Positions 34,625 to 41,874 of a stretch of 64,000 nucleotides of DNA are shown here, piece after piece. Each line of letters starts with the position of its first letter. Position 1 is the stretch's first letter. Location of the stretch: positions 310,001-374,000 of the forward strand of contig CAILMF010000054.1 in the NCBI GenBank assembly GCA_903835235.1, written 5' to 3'. Origin of the DNA: an uncultured Rhodospirillales bacterium. GTDB taxonomy: Bacteria > Pseudomonadota > Alphaproteobacteria > Acetobacterales > Acetobacteraceae. The position numbers and the translations under genes were made by a program. The notes under the pieces were generated by a model, which was not told the DNA's origin, made no database searches, and saw nothing but the letters and a program-made list of their open reading frames with translations.

Positions 34625-35230
34625 ATGACGGCCGCACCGCCGGTGGATGCCTGGCAGCTGCAACGGATCAAACGCCGGCTGGATGCGCTGCCGCACTGGT
34701 TGGGTGACGACCGCCAGGTGTGCCTGGCCGGCGAGCCGCCGCTGGAGGATATCGAGGGCCAGTTCCGCCTGGCCGGGCTGCGTTGCCTGCTGGCCGCCCT
34801 GGGCGCCCGCATCGGGCAGGGGGCCACGGCCACGACGATCTGGCTGGGCCATGGGCAGGTGCCGCTCGCCCCACGCCTGCTGCTGTGGCCGGCACCGGGG
34901 CAGGTGCTGGCTTCCGGCATCGCCCTGCCGCTGCCTGACCCGATGCATGCGCTGTGGGGGCTGCTGGAGCATCACCCGCCCGGCACCGGCACGCTGCATC
35001 TGCCGACGCTGCCGGATTGGCGCCCGCTGCTGCCTCTGCTGCAACGCCTGCCGCCCTGGATGCCGCTGCCGGCGCGGCTGCGTCGCGCCGTGCTGAGCCG
35101 CGCCCAGCGCCTGGTGCGCGCCCATGCGGAGGTCGTGGCGCCGCGCCCGGCCGGGAGCATCCTGGCGGCCATCCTGGGCCGCGACTTCCTGCTGACGCCG
35201 GCGACCCAGGCCTATTGGCAGCAATGGTAG
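34625..35230 (+). CDS. Hypothetical protein in glycosyltransferase cluster
   Basis: A 201-residue protein I do not recognise. It is Leu/Pro/Arg-rich, without signal peptide or clear membrane helix. Notable parts are QRIKRRLDALPHWLGDD near the N-terminus, GLRCLLAALGARIGQG in the middle and an Arg-rich helix PARLRRAVLSRAQRLVRAH near 147-165. Its stop overlaps the start of the GT14 gene by 7 bp, so the two are translationally coupled and probably act together. Confidence 0.65.
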   Translation: MTAAPPVDAWQLQRIKRRLDALPHWLGDDRQVCLAGEPPLEDIEGQFRLAGLRCLLAALGARIGQGATATTIWLGHGQVPLAPRLLLWPAPGQVLASGIALPLPDPMHALWGLLEHHPPGTGTLHLPTLPDWRPLLPLLQRLPPWMPLPARLRRAVLSRAQRLVRAHAEVVAPRPAGSILAAILGRDFLLTPATQAYWQQW

Positions 35231-36129
35231 CGCCCGCATCGCCGCCGCTGGCCGGCTTCGCCTGCCTGGTGCTGGCGCACGACAACCCGGCGCAACTGCT
35301 GCTGCTGCTGCGCTGGCTGGGCGAAAACGGCGCGACCTGCCACCTGCACCTGGACCCCCGTGCGGCTCCGGTGCGTGCCGCCGTGGAGGCCACCGCGCTG
35401 CCCGGCGTAGCACTGCTGCCGGTGGCGGAGTCCTTCCGCATCGAATGGGGCGGCTATGCCATGGTCCGCGCCACGCTGGCGCTGCTGCGCGCGGCGCTGG
35501 CGCAGCCCGGGGTGCAGCAGGTTTGCCTGCTTTCCGGCACCCACCTGCCGCTGCTGCCGGCCGAGGCGCTGGCGCGGCGGCTGGGCGATGGCCGCAACCA
35601 CCTGGACCTGCGGTTCGCCTGCATGGAACCGCCGGACCGCGAGAGCCTGCATCGCTTCTGGTTCCGCGGTGTGCCCGGCCGGCAGGAGACCCGCCCGCTG
35701 GTGCGCTGGCTGAACCGCCACGCCTGGCGGCTGGGCCCGCGGGACCTGGCGCGTGGCCTGCGCGGGCTGACGCCCATGGTCGGCAGCCAATGGTGGCACC
35801 TGACCGCGCCGGCTGCGTTGGAGATGCTGGCCTTCCTGGACGCCAACCCCTGGTACGAAGCCTTCTTCCTCCATGCCCGCATCCCCGATGAGAGCTTCTT
35901 CCAGACCCTGCTTGGGGCCACGCCTGGAATCGCCGCGCTGGGGCCGCCGATGAGCTTCCAGTGCATGCGCGGCTACAGCCCTGCGGTGCTGGAAGCCGCC
36001 GACCTGCCAGCTGCCCTGGCCAGTGGCGCCGCCTTCGCGCGGAAATTCGACCAGCGGACCCAGCCCGAAGCCGTGCGCCTCGCCCTGCTGGCGGCCCAGG
36101 CCGAGGGGGCGCTGACCCGTGCCGGATGA
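35224..36129 (+). CDS. GT14-family glycosyltransferase (core-2/I-branching type)
   Basis: A 301-residue soluble transferase resembling beta-1,6-N-acetylglucosaminyl- or xylosyltransferases of family GT14. The N-terminus has FACLVLAHDNPAQL and LHLDPRA. The donor/acceptor region has VCLLSGTHLPL and SQWWHL, and an acidic PDESFFQTLL supplies the typical base (Glu near 221). No membrane segment, so cytoplasmic. Coupled to the genes on both sides (7-bp and 11-bp overlaps). Confidence 0.8.
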   Translation: MVAPASPPLAGFACLVLAHDNPAQLLLLLRWLGENGATCHLHLDPRAAPVRAAVEATALPGVALLPVAESFRIEWGGYAMVRATLALLRAALAQPGVQQVCLLSGTHLPLLPAEALARRLGDGRNHLDLRFACMEPPDRESLHRFWFRGVPGRQETRPLVRWLNRHAWRLGPRDLARGLRGLTPMVGSQWWHLTAPAALEMLAFLDANPWYEAFFLHARIPDESFFQTLLGATPGIAALGPPMSFQCMRGYSPAVLEAADLPAALASGAAFARKFDQRTQPEAVRLALLAAQAEGALTRAG

Positions 36130-37168
36130 CCTGCCGGACGGCCTGGCCTGGCTCGGCGCCCCGCCGCAGCCGCGGCCGGGCGAGGTCATCGCCCTGCTGG
36201 TGACGCGCAACGAGGCGCTGCGCCTGCCGGCCTGCCTGGCGCATCTGCGCGCCCAGGGGGTGGACCGCGCCTATGTCATCGACAATCGGTCCAGCGACGC
36301 CACGCGAGAGATCGCGGCGCGCGAGCCCTGGGTGCATGTGATGGACGCGCCGGGCAGCTATGCCGGCTCCGGGTTCGGGATTTCCTGGACCAACGCGGTA
36401 CTGGACCGCCACGCCCGCAACCATTGGGCGCTGGTGGTGGATGCCGATGAGCTGCTGGTCTTCCCGGGCTGCGAGACCCAGGGGCTGCCGGCGCTGTGCG
36501 CGCACCTGGCGGCCATCGGCGCCGAGGCGTTCCGCACCATCCTGCTGGACTGTTTCCCGGATGGCCCGCTGCACCGCCTGGCCTATGCCCCCGGCGACCC
36601 ACTGCCCCAGGCGGCGCCCTGTTTCGAGCCGCCACGGCTGCGGGCTGAGTCGGTGTCGAACTTCCCGTACGATCAGCAATATGGCGGCGTGCGCGAGCGC
36701 CTGTTCTTTGCCGAGACCGACCCGGCCAGGTTGCGGCGCAGGCTGCACCAGAAGGCGTGGAATGCCGGGGTGAAGCTGGGCGTTTCGGCGCGGCTGGCGC
36801 GCTTCGTGCCGCGGCGGTCGCCCACCGTCACCAAACTGCCGCTGGTGTTCTGGCGGGAAGGCGCGGCGTTGCTGGCCTCCACCCACCAGCTGGCACCGAT
36901 GCGGCTGGTGGCGGGCCAGCCCAGCGGCGTGCTGCTGCACTACAAGTTCCTGCAGGACTTCCATGAGCGTGCGCTGGACGCGGTGCGGCGCGATGCGCAT
37001 TGGGATGGCTCGCGCGAGTATCGGCGTTACCTGGCAGCGCTGGCGCGGGACCCGGATTTCGGCTTGAACGGGCCGTTGAGCCTGCGCTTCGAGGGGCCGG
37101 ACCAGCTCACCGCGATGGGGCTGATGCAGGACAGCCCTGGCTGGCTGGCGGCGCGGCAGGGGGCCTGA
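36119..37168 (+). CDS. Glycosyltransferase family 2-like protein
   Basis: A 349-residue GT-A transferase of the Glyco_tranf_2_4/GT92-like kind. It has the nucleotide-sugar strand EVIALLVTRNEALRLPACL, IDNRSSDATREIA, and the metal motif VVDADELLVF (DAD). The start is GTG at 36119, inside the 3' end of the GT14 gene (11-bp overlap); no in-frame ATG exists before the first beta strand. Probably adds a sugar to the same glycan as GT14. Confidence 0.82.
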   Translation: MPDDLPDGLAWLGAPPQPRPGEVIALLVTRNEALRLPACLAHLRAQGVDRAYVIDNRSSDATREIAAREPWVHVMDAPGSYAGSGFGISWTNAVLDRHARNHWALVVDADELLVFPGCETQGLPALCAHLAAIGAEAFRTILLDCFPDGPLHRLAYAPGDPLPQAAPCFEPPRLRAESVSNFPYDQQYGGVRERLFFAETDPARLRRRLHQKAWNAGVKLGVSARLARFVPRRSPTVTKLPLVFWREGAALLASTHQLAPMRLVAGQPSGVLLHYKFLQDFHERALDAVRRDAHWDGSREYRRYLAALARDPDFGLNGPLSLRFEGPDQLTAMGLMQDSPGWLAARQGA

Positions 37169-38545: not shown

Positions 38546-39577
38546 ATGCACCCCCTGACGCGCGGTGCCGTACCCTCCCAGGGGCCGCTTTGGCTTGAAG
38601 TCGATGGGCGGCGCCTGGAGCCGGTTCAGTTGGGGCCGCATGAAGTGCTGTTCCGTTGCCACTTGCCACTGAACCGGCTGGTGCTCTGCTCCGCGGCCGC
38701 ACGCCCGGCGCAACTCGGCCTGGGGCCGGACCAGCGGCTGCTGGGGGTGCAGGTCCTTGGCCTGGTGTGGGAGCAGGACGGCAACAGCTTCATCCCCGGG
38801 CTGCACCAGCCCGACTGCGGACAAGGCTTCCACGACCTGGAGCAAGGCCAGTTTCGCTGGACCGATGGCCGCGCCACCTTTGGCCCCGGCCTGGTGCCAT
38901 CCTGGCAGGGCGAGGCCCGGCTGCGCATCCAGGCGGTGCCGCTGCTGCGCGCCGCCCTGGCGGTGCCGGCCATGCCGGCGCCGGCGGCAGACCTGCTGCG
39001 TGGCTTCGAAAGCCTGGGCGAGGATTGCGAGTTCGGCTTCGTGCAGAAGCACTACGATGCCACCCCGCCGCTCGGCCTGTTCCGCTGGGCCAGTACCGAC
39101 CTGGCACGCCTGCTGGAAGGGCTCGGCAATGGCTTCGCCGGCATCGCCGAGCCCGAAAGCCTGGCCATTTCGGCGGGGGAGACCGACTGGCGGCTGCAGA
39201 CACGCTACGCGCGGCTGCATACCTTCCATGCCCAGGACCCGGCGGCCGACCCGGACTGGCGCCATCGCAACGCCCTGCTGCTGGGGTTGCTGCGGCGAAA
39301 GCTGATGCGCGAGTTGGCGGAAGCCACGCGGTTCTTCGTGTTCAAGTCCGCCACCGAGGGTTTTGGCCCCGGGGAGATGCGCGGGTTGCACGCCGCCATG
39401 GCGCGGCTCGGGCCGGCGCCGCTGCTCTGCGTCACCCAAGGACCGGCGGCCGGGCAGGTGGAGCGGATCGCGCCCGGGCTGTATCATGGCCAGGTCAGCC
39501 GGTTTGTCCTGGGCGCTGGGCCCTACGAGGAGTGGCTGGCGCTATGCCGGAAGGCGCGGGCCCTGCATGACGCCTGA
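38546..39577 (+). CDS. Unknown protein with SLGxxC motif (DUF1796-like cysteine-enzyme signature)
   Basis: A 343-residue protein with two parts. The first about 145 residues include VDGRRLEPVQLGPHEV and FRWTDGRATFGPGL and look like an accessory beta domain. The second begins ESLGEDCEFGFVQKHYD with Cys161, then PPLGLFRWAST, ending in a helical region. The order SLGxxC, then FRW, recalls DUF1796 (putative papain-like cysteine enzymes), a comparison from memory. Start chosen at ATG 38546; an upstream TTG (38465) is possible. It overlaps the acyl carrier protein gene by 11 bp. Function unknown. Confidence 0.7.
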   Translation: MHPLTRGAVPSQGPLWLEVDGRRLEPVQLGPHEVLFRCHLPLNRLVLCSAAARPAQLGLGPDQRLLGVQVLGLVWEQDGNSFIPGLHQPDCGQGFHDLEQGQFRWTDGRATFGPGLVPSWQGEARLRIQAVPLLRAALAVPAMPAPAADLLRGFESLGEDCEFGFVQKHYDATPPLGLFRWASTDLARLLEGLGNGFAGIAEPESLAISAGETDWRLQTRYARLHTFHAQDPAADPDWRHRNALLLGLLRRKLMRELAEATRFFVFKSATEGFGPGEMRGLHAAMARLGPAPLLCVTQGPAAGQVERIAPGLYHGQVSRFVLGAGPYEEWLALCRKARALHDA

Positions 39578-39809
39578 GGCCCAAGACTTCGGCCAGCTGG
39601 CAAGCCTGCTGCGTCGCCTGTGCGAACAGCCGCTGCCTGACCTGGCGCCCGACACCCCGCTGGTCGAGATCGACGGGCTGGACAGCATTCGGCTGCTGGA
39701 AGCGGTGGCGCTGCTGGAGGAAGCCTTGGGCGTGGAATTCCCGACCCAGGCACTGGACGGATTGGAAACCGTCGCCGACCTGCTGCGGCTGATGGCCGCG
39801 GCCAGGTAG
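39567..39809 (+). CDS. Stand-alone acyl carrier protein
   Basis: An 80-residue acidic four-helix carrier domain. The phosphopantetheine site is Ser40 in IDGLDSIRLLEAVALLEE, and VEFPTQALDGLETVADLL forms helix 3, typical of ACP/PCP domains. It is not the fatty acid synthase AcpP: no fab genes are near, and the site reads GLDSIRL rather than GADSLDTV. Translationally coupled to the SLGxxC gene. It ends 3 bp from the convergent adenylation enzyme, its likely loading partner. Confidence 0.88.
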   Translation: MTPEAQDFGQLASLLRRLCEQPLPDLAPDTPLVEIDGLDSIRLLEAVALLEEALGVEFPTQALDGLETVADLLRLMAAAR

Positions 39810-39812
39810 GGC

Positions 39813-41384
39813 TCAGCCGCCGGCCATCCGGCGCAGCGCCACCAGGTCCAGCTTGCCGTTGGCCGGCAGGCGCGGCAGGTCGGGCAGTACCTCCAGGGTG
39901 GAGGGCCGGAACGGGCTGGGCAGGGCGTCGGCCAGGCGGCGGCGCAGCGCCGGCAGCAACGCCGCGGCATCCTGCCCTGGCGCGGCGACAAAGCCGTGCA
40001 GCGTCACGCGCGTGGCCGCGCCCAGCGCCAGCACAGCGGCCTCGGTCACGCCGGGTTCGGCGCGCAGGATCGCCTCGATCTCGCTGGGGTCCACCCGCAC
40101 GCCGTTGATCTTCACCTGGCGGTCGGCCCGGCCCAGCATCTGCACCAGGCCATCGGGGAGAATCCGGGCCAGGTCCCCGGTGTGGAATCGGCGCCAGCCG
40201 GGGCGGTCGGGTTCCGCCGCCATGCGACCGGGGACCAGGCGCCCGGCCTGCCATTCCCCCAGCGCCAGGTAGGGGCCGCGCAGGGTCAGTTCGCCGGCCT
40301 CGCCAGGCGGCACCGGCGCGCCATCGGGGTCCAGCAGCGCCATCTCGTGGATCGGCTCGGCGTGGCCGGCAGGGATGGGGCCGGGCGGGAGCGGTTCGAG
40401 GGGCAGTCGCCATTGCGCGATGACCTGCGCTTCGGTCGAGGCGAAGGTGTGTTGCAGGGCGCAGCCGGGCGGCAGGACCGCGCGCCAGGCGGCGACATCC
40501 TCGGCCAGGACCGGGGAGTTGCCGGACCGTTGCAGGCGCAGCGTGGCGAAGCTGGCACGGGCTTCCTCGCGCTGGAGCAGCAGCCGCCACAGCGTCGGCC
40601 CGGCCGCCGCGCAGGTCACGCCCTCGCGCAAGGCCAGGCGCAGGACGGCACGGGCGCCTTCCAGCCCCAGCTGCGTCAGCACGGCCCGCGCCCCGCTGAA
40701 CAGCGTGGCGAGCAGGAAGGCCATGCCGGAACTGGTGGTGGGCAGGGAGGTGACCATGACCCGGTCGGTCGGCCCCAACTGCCAGTGCTGCATCACCTCC
40801 AGCACGCGGGCCAGCAGGCCGCGCGCGTTCAGCACGATGCCCTTGGGCCGGCCGGTGCTGCCGGAGGTGAAGTGCACGGTCAGCGGCGCGTCGGGGCTCC
40901 AGGCGTGGTCCAGCCGCCAGTCCTCCACCGGGCCGGACAACAGGTCCGGCAGCAGCAGCACGGGGGCAGCACAGGGCAGCTCCGGCGGCGTCGCCGCCAG
41001 GATCGCGGCAGGCACGGCTTCCGCCAGCAAGCCGCGCAGACGTTCAGGTGGGTCCAGCGGGTTCAAGACCAGCGCCACCCGGCCGGAAATCACGCAGCCG
41101 AGGAGGCCGGCGATGGCATCGGGCCGGTGCGGCAGCAGGCAGGCGATGGCGGCGCCGGGCGGTACCCGGGCGGCCAGCGCAGCCGCTACCTGCTGGGACT
41201 GGCGCAGCAGGGTGGCGTGATCCAGGGCGCCTGCCTGGCCGGCAATGGCGGTCGCGACCGGGTCGATCGCCGCGCCTTGGCGGAGCAGGTCGATAGGCGG
41301 GGTTTCGACGAAGCTTTCAAGGCCTTCCAGCGGAGCGGACCAGCGGGCGCCAGGCAGTCCCCAGGCGAGATTCGGCACGTTCAT
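39813..41384 (-). CDS. Stand-alone NRPS-like adenylation enzyme (AMP-dependent ligase)
   Basis: A 523-residue class I adenylate-forming enzyme. Core motif HFTSGSTGRPKG is at 171-182. A TGDLARILPDG-type hinge is followed by GRADRQVKINGVRVDPSEIE, close to the A8 motif of NRPS adenylation domains, and the A10 lysine is in LPANGKLD at the end. No carrier, condensation or thioesterase domain is fused. With the adjacent free carrier protein it probably activates an amino, hydroxy or fatty acid and loads the carrier. The substrate code cannot be judged reliably by eye. Confidence 0.85.
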   Translation of the reverse strand: MNVPNLAWGLPGARWSAPLEGLESFVETPPIDLLRQGAAIDPVATAIAGQAGALDHATLLRQSQQVAAALAARVPPGAAIACLLPHRPDAIAGLLGCVISGRVALVLNPLDPPERLRGLLAEAVPAAILAATPPELPCAAPVLLLPDLLSGPVEDWRLDHAWSPDAPLTVHFTSGSTGRPKGIVLNARGLLARVLEVMQHWQLGPTDRVMVTSLPTTSSGMAFLLATLFSGARAVLTQLGLEGARAVLRLALREGVTCAAAGPTLWRLLLQREEARASFATLRLQRSGNSPVLAEDVAAWRAVLPPGCALQHTFASTEAQVIAQWRLPLEPLPPGPIPAGHAEPIHEMALLDPDGAPVPPGEAGELTLRGPYLALGEWQAGRLVPGRMAAEPDRPGWRRFHTGDLARILPDGLVQMLGRADRQVKINGVRVDPSEIEAILRAEPGVTEAAVLALGAATRVTLHGFVAAPGQDAAALLPALRRRLADALPSPFRPSTLEVLPDLPRLPANGKLDLVALRRMAGG

Positions 41385-41596: not shown

Positions 41597-41671
41597 TGGC
41601 TCCGGCGGTTGGATTCGAACCAACGACCAACGGATTAACAGTCCGCTGCGCTACCGCTGCGCCACGCCGGA
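41597..41671 (-). tRNA. tRNA-Asn (anticodon GTT)
   Basis: Minus-strand cloverleaf with acceptor TCCGGCG/CGCCGGA, anticodon loop CTGTTAA giving GTT, T loop TTCGAAT, discriminator G and an encoded CCA at 41597-41599. Confidence 0.95.
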
Positions 41672-41800: not shown

Positions 41801-41874
41801 TGGAGGTCCGGGGCGGAATTGAACCGCCGTAGCAGGTTTTGCAGACCTGTGCCTGACCACTCGGCCACCGGACC
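41801..41874 (-). tRNA. tRNA-Cys (anticodon GCA)
   Basis: Minus-strand cloverleaf with acceptor GGTCCGG/CCGGACC, anticodon loop CTGCAAA giving GCA, discriminator T (U73, typical for tRNA-Cys) and an encoded CCA at 41801-41803. It lies 129 bp upstream of tRNA-Asn on the same strand, so both may share a transcript. Confidence 0.95.

Follow-up and report, generated by a model that had tools for sequence, protein, structure and literature searches.

Gene arrangement and encoded proteins

We analysed a window of 64,000 nucleotides from an uncultured Rhodospirillales bacterium (contig CAILMF010000054.1, positions 310,001 to 374,000, forward strand), in which three adjacent genes encode a protein with an SLGxxC motif, a free carrier protein and a stand-alone adenylation enzyme (Table 1). 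The SLGxxC and carrier genes share 11 bp, and the carrier stop lies 3 bp from the convergent adenylation gene; the three frames, the overlap and the gap reported in a first-pass annotation of this DNA were exact in their coordinates. All three reading frames are intact, with the key residues present. A codon-usage caller of open reading frames also picks all three genes, placing the start of the first one further on (38645), an agreement that supports them weakly, as the caller was trained on a set including two of the three. A promoter and terminator scan found none.

Table 1. Features of the three-gene locus and of its surroundings in the window
Feature	Position	Strand	Remarks
SLGxxC gene	38546-39577	+	343 amino acids
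Carrier gene	39567-39809	+	80 amino acids
Adenylation enzyme gene	39813-41384	-	523 amino acids; stand-alone AMP-forming enzyme, no carrier
SLGEDCE motif with Cys161	39011-39031 (Cys codon 39026-39028)	+
Ser40 of the carrier, in DSI	39684-39686 (codon)	+	motif and PP-binding match
N-domain, beta strands	about residues 16-132 of the SLGxxC protein	+	predicted model
C-domain, Rossmann-like, with Cys161 and His225	about residues 146-343 of the SLGxxC protein	+	predicted model
N-domain, common to the stretch after Hint_2 domains elsewhere	38576-38965 (approximate, residues 11-140)	+
Core-2/I-branching (GT14-like, Branch) glycosyltransferase	35224-36129	+	neighbour, membership unproven
GT2-type glycosyltransferase	36119-37168	+	neighbour, membership unproven
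tRNA-Asn gene	41597-41671	-	past the three genes
tRNA-Cys gene	41801-41874	-	past the three genes

By profile match, the window holds both a phosphopantetheine carrier and an adenylation (A) domain of the nonribosomal peptide synthetase (NRPS) type. The carrier matches Pfam PP-binding at 1.5e-11, and its DSI motif at Ser40 agrees with the attachment site annotated previously; the serine of this DS is kept in all 39 carriers when read off the motif list. The adenylation enzyme matches AMP-binding (4.1e-50) and AMP-binding_C (2.4e-5) and contains TSGSTGRPKG, GRADRQVKINGVR and NGKLD, which we take to be motifs A3, A8 and A10, so that its description as a carrier-less enzyme with A8- and A10-type motifs is borne out. 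Its A domain scores 231 against TIGR01733, below the cut-off of 317. In NRPS A domains, specificity follows a rule by which Asp235 binds the alpha-amino group. The equivalent residue of the window's enzyme is Ser in a manual reading of the alignment, and the free A enzymes of relatives, where their cores were printed, have no FDxS at this site, while FDV occurs in the fused A domains printed (L033-L035, L064, L066, L069 and L072). The free enzymes probably bind no ordinary alpha-amino acid, judging from these residues. Because the window's enzyme is without the amino-acid-binding Asp, the second half of the proposed 'acyl/aminoacyl-transfer' label is doubtful.

In the window's genome as a whole, we found one match to a phosphopantetheinyl transferase, in a 221-amino-acid frame, and six matches to PP-binding. 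One of the latter (contig C1 near 12390, L172) lies inside an open frame of 2574 amino acids, perhaps a large synthase. Condensation domains have no match across this genome (4 of 14 control genomes have one). The earlier statement that condensation, thioesterase and polyketide synthase domains are lacking thus holds genome-wide for the condensation domain, the only one of the three for which the genome was searched.

The SLGxxC protein of the window has no match in Pfam, NCBIfam or PDB sequences, and none of 87 C-domains matches NCBIfam at 0.01. In 150 genomes of the same family, matches at 1e-4 were present in 68, and the proteins fall into three classes: full-length, those with residues ~10-130 only and those with residues ~140-343 only (N-domain and C-domain, respectively). 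The C-part occurs by itself, as tandem copies or in fusions. Of the C-only proteins, ten were scanned, with GT61 in three, TPR in three and no Pfam family in four; six further ones also had no Pfam family. Cys161, Glu162, Gln167 and His225 are invariant in the 21 two-domain sequences. Among the C-only copies, Glu and Gln are kept in 66 of 66, Cys in 65 and His in 59, which brings all C-domains together to 86 of 87 for Cys and 80 of 87 for His. These residue counts rest on alignment A3, with five members of alignment A2 omitted (L108, L123, L129, L130 minus strand and L139); SLGxxC matches below 160 bits were omitted from A2.

Recurrence of the gene set

A scan of named genomes with a profile of ten full-length proteins gave 181 stretches and 131 relatives, and 80 loci were kept. 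The carrier, A, condensation-like, N and SLGxxC profiles applied to them were home-made from the first-found family loci. Two-domain SLGxxC proteins occur in 20 of the 80 loci, and all 20 have a carrier. It is fused in frame in four, fused with a frame break in one (L069), within 36 bp on the same strand in 14 and, in the last (L080), separated by the A gene. An AMP-forming A domain is present in 16 of the 20 stretches. In the 60 C-only loci, a carrier lies within 160 bp on the same strand in six and within 50 bp on the other strand in seven, four of these seven scoring only 24-26 bits. In total, 948 kb contained 39 carrier hits, 33 of them fused to SLGxxC or at most 262 bp away and six elsewhere. 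Grouped at >75% identity, the two-domain loci represent 16 lineages, the window included. The three-gene arrangement is therefore not a matter of chance: it recurs across genera, at times as a fusion, and extends beyond close relatives; the first-pass annotation had named confinement to such relatives as the outcome that would tell against its reading.

Five of the 20 loci have A-carrier-SLGxxC fusions, one with a frame break. The layout is [170-200 amino acids]-A-carrier-N-SLG in L033/L064 and condensation-like-A-carrier-N-SLG in L034/L066, L035/L072 and L070. The condensation-like domains match Pfam at 1.3e-17 (L034) and 2.1e-14 (L035), and a search of the fused ones for HHxxxDG did not find this motif in L066, L070 and L072. 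In NRPSs, the release domain often takes the terminal place. Since the fused order ends in carrier-N-SLG, the SLGxxC protein stands where NRPSs often keep a release domain. In L069 (4868-5287), the frame break falls within the N-domain of the fused NRPS-SLGxxC gene and is either real or an assembly error.

The missing HHxxxDG motifs, together with the convergent A gene and the lack of condensation matches in the genome, would suit a different explanation, in which the three genes share no function and are either what is left of a decaying NRPS or its chance neighbours. Intact frames with their key residues in all three genes and a carrier linked in 20 of 20 loci are hard to reconcile with decay, and we regard this explanation as highly improbable.

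The partners also vary together. Pairwise distances of SLGxxC proteins correlate with those of the carriers (r 0.84, 21 loci, 0 of 5000 permutations), also when fusions are left out (r 0.80, 16 loci, 0 of 5000), and with those of the A enzymes (r 0.79, 17 loci, 0 of 5000) or of the free A enzymes (r 0.60, 12 loci, 9 of 5000). In genus-mate G015, gene order is kept among the neighbours, which are 82-96% identical, but the SLGxxC-carrier pair is only 51-63% identical. There the pair sits between the GT2 gene and a hydroxyacid dehydrogenase gene; in the window these two genes almost touch, and the pair follows the dehydrogenase. Because both placement and identity differ, we infer that the two genes were inserted or moved as a pair, apart from the glycosyltransferase genes. 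L063 is apparently the G015 locus, with the same match values, and in the G015 genome an A enzyme with 61% identity is encoded apart from it, on a contig of 4.2 kb.

Domains of the SLGxxC protein

The first-pass annotation had likened the SLGxxC motif to that of DUF1796 papain-like proteins. Profile comparison relates the C-domain distantly to DUF1796 (PF08795), with hhalign giving 94.1% (E 1.2e-7, 141 columns) against 9 of 11 DUF1796 sequences, from which L060 and L061 were omitted, and 87% against the six that keep the cysteine. Controls reached at most 0.6% (30 column-shuffled alignments) and 0.3% (the N, A, carrier and condensation-like alignments). In the alignment, the Cys motif matches up and the His region does so roughly. 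The likeness thus holds at the profile level, though the Pfam DUF1796 model has no match to the window's protein at E 1 and matches 4 of 92 members weakly (best 0.0092). DUF1796 was found in 0 of 120 genomes of a wider phylum sample, in which no control matched either, and no match to the SLGxxC protein was found on plasmids. Four proteins (L055, L057, L059 and L061) begin like a GT2 enzyme, as judged by eye, and end like DUF1796, with SLGGDE or SLGGDG at the place of SLGxxC, making them a branch without the cysteine.

The second half of that description, a papain-like fold, finds no support. The full-length protein was modelled with a predicted local distance difference test (pLDDT) score of 90 and a predicted template modelling (pTM) score of 0.69, and the C-domain alone with 93.9 and 0.91. 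The modelled C-domain has first a strand, then Cys, two helices and three short strands up to His225, and after them a long helix, a strand, a helix and a strand; by our own reading of this order the predicted fold is Rossmann-like rather than papain-like. Among the 50 matches listed by Foldseek or VIA for either model there is no papain-like chain, which does not imply exclusion. The closest solved chain among them is 2g6t (Z 7.8, root-mean-square deviation 4.0, 162-167 residues; next match 6.4), which a DUF1919 protein (PF08942) matches by sequence at 8.5e-8. At Z below 8, this likeness may reflect a common arrangement of elements. In Foldseek, no solved chain had an E-value as low as 0.001. 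In a viral fold library, the name (putative) papain-like cysteine peptidase, which is the Pfam title of DUF1796, is borne by the top four matches and by seven of the top eight; the eighth is named glycosyltransferase.

Two other relationships were considered and set aside. A sequence relationship to DUF1919 has no profile support in an alignment of three sequences, one without its N-terminal end, and DUF1919 occurs in 1 of 100 same-family genomes. Kinship with SGNH esterases was suggested by CE2, CE20 and a deacetylase at Z 4.2-5.2 for the full-length model; none is among the 50 matches listed for the C-domain alone.

The N-domain has an unexpected distribution, as by sequence it is common to Hint_2 autoprocessing proteins. 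Ten regions with N-domain-only matches were fetched and nine proteins scanned, the four matches in L170 and the rest lying outside this set. Hint_2 precedes the N-domain in eight of the nine, one of which also has a group-1 glycosyltransferase, and the ninth has an alpha/beta hydrolase. Among the Hint_2-N-domain proteins (L161-L169), one has RTX and one PATR repeats, and one is 2925 amino acids long. The genome of the window has no Hint_2 match.

Hint domains turn the protein chain into a thioester, which is then transferred to a nucleophile, and in hedgehog proteins the domain after Hint serves acceptor recognition. The three-gene system would likewise form a thioester, of a small acyl group on the carrier, for transfer to a nucleophile. 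By analogy, the N-domain may recognise an acceptor in both types of protein; that the SLGxxC N-domain and the post-Hint_2 domain recognise one and the same acceptor is a long shot. If true, one domain for recognising the acceptor would be at work in two thioester chemistries that are unrelated, one joining whole proteins and the other small acyl groups to the same kind of molecule. The common domain would also give a way of asking what bacterial Hint_2 proteins may become joined to.

Proposed function

On balance, we favour the interpretation that the trio is a stand-alone activation-carrier-transfer module with the SLGxxC protein as transferase. At the expense of ATP, the adenylation enzyme would activate a carboxylic acid that is probably no ordinary alpha-amino acid and would bind it by a thioester to the free carrier's phosphopantetheine arm. 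From the carrier, the SLGxxC protein would take over the acyl group, most likely via Cys161 aided by His225, and hand it to an acceptor, with the N-terminal beta domain binding either this acceptor or the carrier.

Several observations weigh against such a module. An A domain was not found in 4 of the 20 two-domain stretches (L063, L067, L073 and L075), at least the last three being long enough for an A gene, and in the window the adenylation gene lies on the opposite strand. Among the 60 C-only loci, 41 have no carrier and six more have one at least 240 bp off (some stretches are short); because the C-domain often occurs where there is no carrier, it has roles besides carrier chemistry. His225 is less well conserved than Cys161 in the C-only copies. 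The Cys and Glu conservation is partly due to construction, since the pattern of the locus scan held LG..CE; in a pattern-free search, Cys is present in 21 and His in 20 of 22 chosen rows, counted by eye. Finally, common ancestry also contributes to the correlated distances.

The scarcity of carriers beside C-only domains would also suit an enzyme that processes glycans or small molecules, working by tailoring, hydrolysis or release on a substrate while the carrier holds it, with another protein carrying out the transfer. The surroundings of the two-domain form give this some weight. Family-5 solute-binding proteins are encoded in 11 of the 20 two-domain stretches against 2 of the 60 C-only ones, with none in the window; these stretches form eight lineages at 75% grouping, and 7 of the 11 proteins belong to one close subfamily (at least 52.7% identical to the query, one of them a partial match). 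Several loci encode a second, different A enzyme, which adjoins the solute-binding protein in at least five of the seven close-subfamily loci. As solute-binding proteins and second A enzymes adjoin, a free small product is suggested. A conserved Cys after the first strand, in a domain that is terminal after A-carrier in the fusions, fits thioester release or transfer better than tailoring, and we consider a processing role with transfer by another protein rather unlikely.

In L036/L077, L079, L076, L080, L081 and L090, the genes recur in the same-strand order second A, family-5 solute-binding protein, SLGxxC, carrier, first A, with carrier and A swapped in L080; L076 ends before the first A.

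Neighbouring genes and the acceptor

Returning to the transfer module, we next consider its acceptor. Three genes upstream had been annotated as GT-C-like, GT14 and GT2, making a glycan a candidate. Profile matches confirm the GT14-like and GT2 glycosyltransferases (GTs), while the supposed GT-C-like gene encodes a 540-amino-acid membrane-like protein with no Pfam match. If these three proteins make a glycan, the module could acylate an amino sugar or a sugar hydroxyl on it. This is a special case of the transfer reading, and our estimate, that such a glycan is an unlikely acceptor, refers to the acceptor.

Several findings are in keeping with a glycan. GT genes stand immediately upstream both in the window and in the genus-mate, GT61 domains are part of 3 of the 10 C-only proteins scanned, and a group-1 glycosyltransferase is part of one N-domain protein. 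On one plasmid, a DUF1919 gene is next to one for a glycosyltransferase; DUF1919 papers name exopolysaccharide loci in their titles and, in one abstract, capsule loci. Moreover, the known parallel systems acylate amino sugars. The GT block, however, is conserved separately, with the module on either side of the next gene in the two genus-mates, and tblastn with the window's neighbours found no third two-domain lineage, save for a weak dehydrogenase match in L065. In nine other two-domain loci scanned, one GT was among the neighbours, beyond an ABC exporter adjoining the fused gene of L070; the others are metabolic or transport genes. These mixed neighbours include xanthine-dehydrogenase-like, acyl-CoA dehydrogenase, aminotransferase, TauD, DctP, isocitrate dehydrogenase and luciferase-like genes, among others. 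One DUF1796 gene is found amid genes for type IV secretion. The commoner neighbour of the two-domain form is thus the solute-binding protein and not a glycosyltransferase, and from this and the mixed neighbours we regard the glycan acceptor suggested earlier as a weakly supported possibility rather than a likely one, with GTs near the module in the window, in G015 and in L070.

The DUF1796 gene just mentioned is on a Gluconobacter plasmid (L160:451-1236), beside a transglycosylase gene and type IV secretion genes of the DotC/DotD type; the plasmid is conjugative.

Known systems

A free activating enzyme and a free carrier working with a non-standard transferase are a kind of system that is already known. 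In butirosin biosynthesis, BtrJ and BtrI are the ligase and the carrier. The acyl carrier protein:aminoglycoside acyltransferase of this pathway is BtrH (PMC10318531); the likeness lies in a separate ligase, a free carrier and an acyltransferase working from the carrier. BtrH_N is papain-like. The 92 SLGxxC members together match 20 families at E 1, and BtrH_N (PF14399) is not one of them; it was found in 0 of 100 same-family genomes (one match, below the cut-off, in 14 controls). Lincosamide synthetase (LmbC, LmbN-CP, LmbD and others) joins an acid to an amino sugar (PMC4351081) and likewise combines a stand-alone A domain with a carrier, with LmbD, described there as without similarity to known proteins, in the joining step. 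It differs in that its A enzyme activates a proline derivative and in its further mycothiol-like subunits. In a third case, an amino acid:carrier-protein ligase, a carrier and an Atu2574-type protein are encoded near surface-sugar genes, and their predicted role is to couple an amino acid to an amino sugar (PMC2922099). Free ligase, carrier and uncharacterised conserved protein are shared features; the ligase described there is a class-II tRNA-synthetase homologue and not an AMP-binding enzyme. LmbD and Atu2574 were set beside the SLGxxC protein by description, not by sequence.

The new part appears to be the transferase family with its N-domain. DUF1796 matches it by profile, with the Cys motif aligned and viral fold matches named papain-like cysteine peptidase, and DUF1919 (2g6t) is the nearest to it by solved fold, the latter without profile support. 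The literature searched, with subscription papers mostly outside it, contains no mention of DUF1796 or PF08795 and no report of DUF1796 or DUF1919 with carriers (for DUF1919, judged from a listing of three papers); listings of combined searches show nothing on the module itself. If the proposed transfer is true, acyl transfer from a carrier would be the first testable function for the DUF1796 superfamily, unexplained in that literature, and the SLGxxC protein would be a new transferase type among the few systems in which an acid bound to a carrier is joined to an acceptor with no condensation domain involved. With three genes, the system is small enough for rebuilding in the test tube.

The tRNA-Asn and tRNA-Cys genes lie 0.2-0.5 kb past the module, and their position beside it makes them a possible insertion site.

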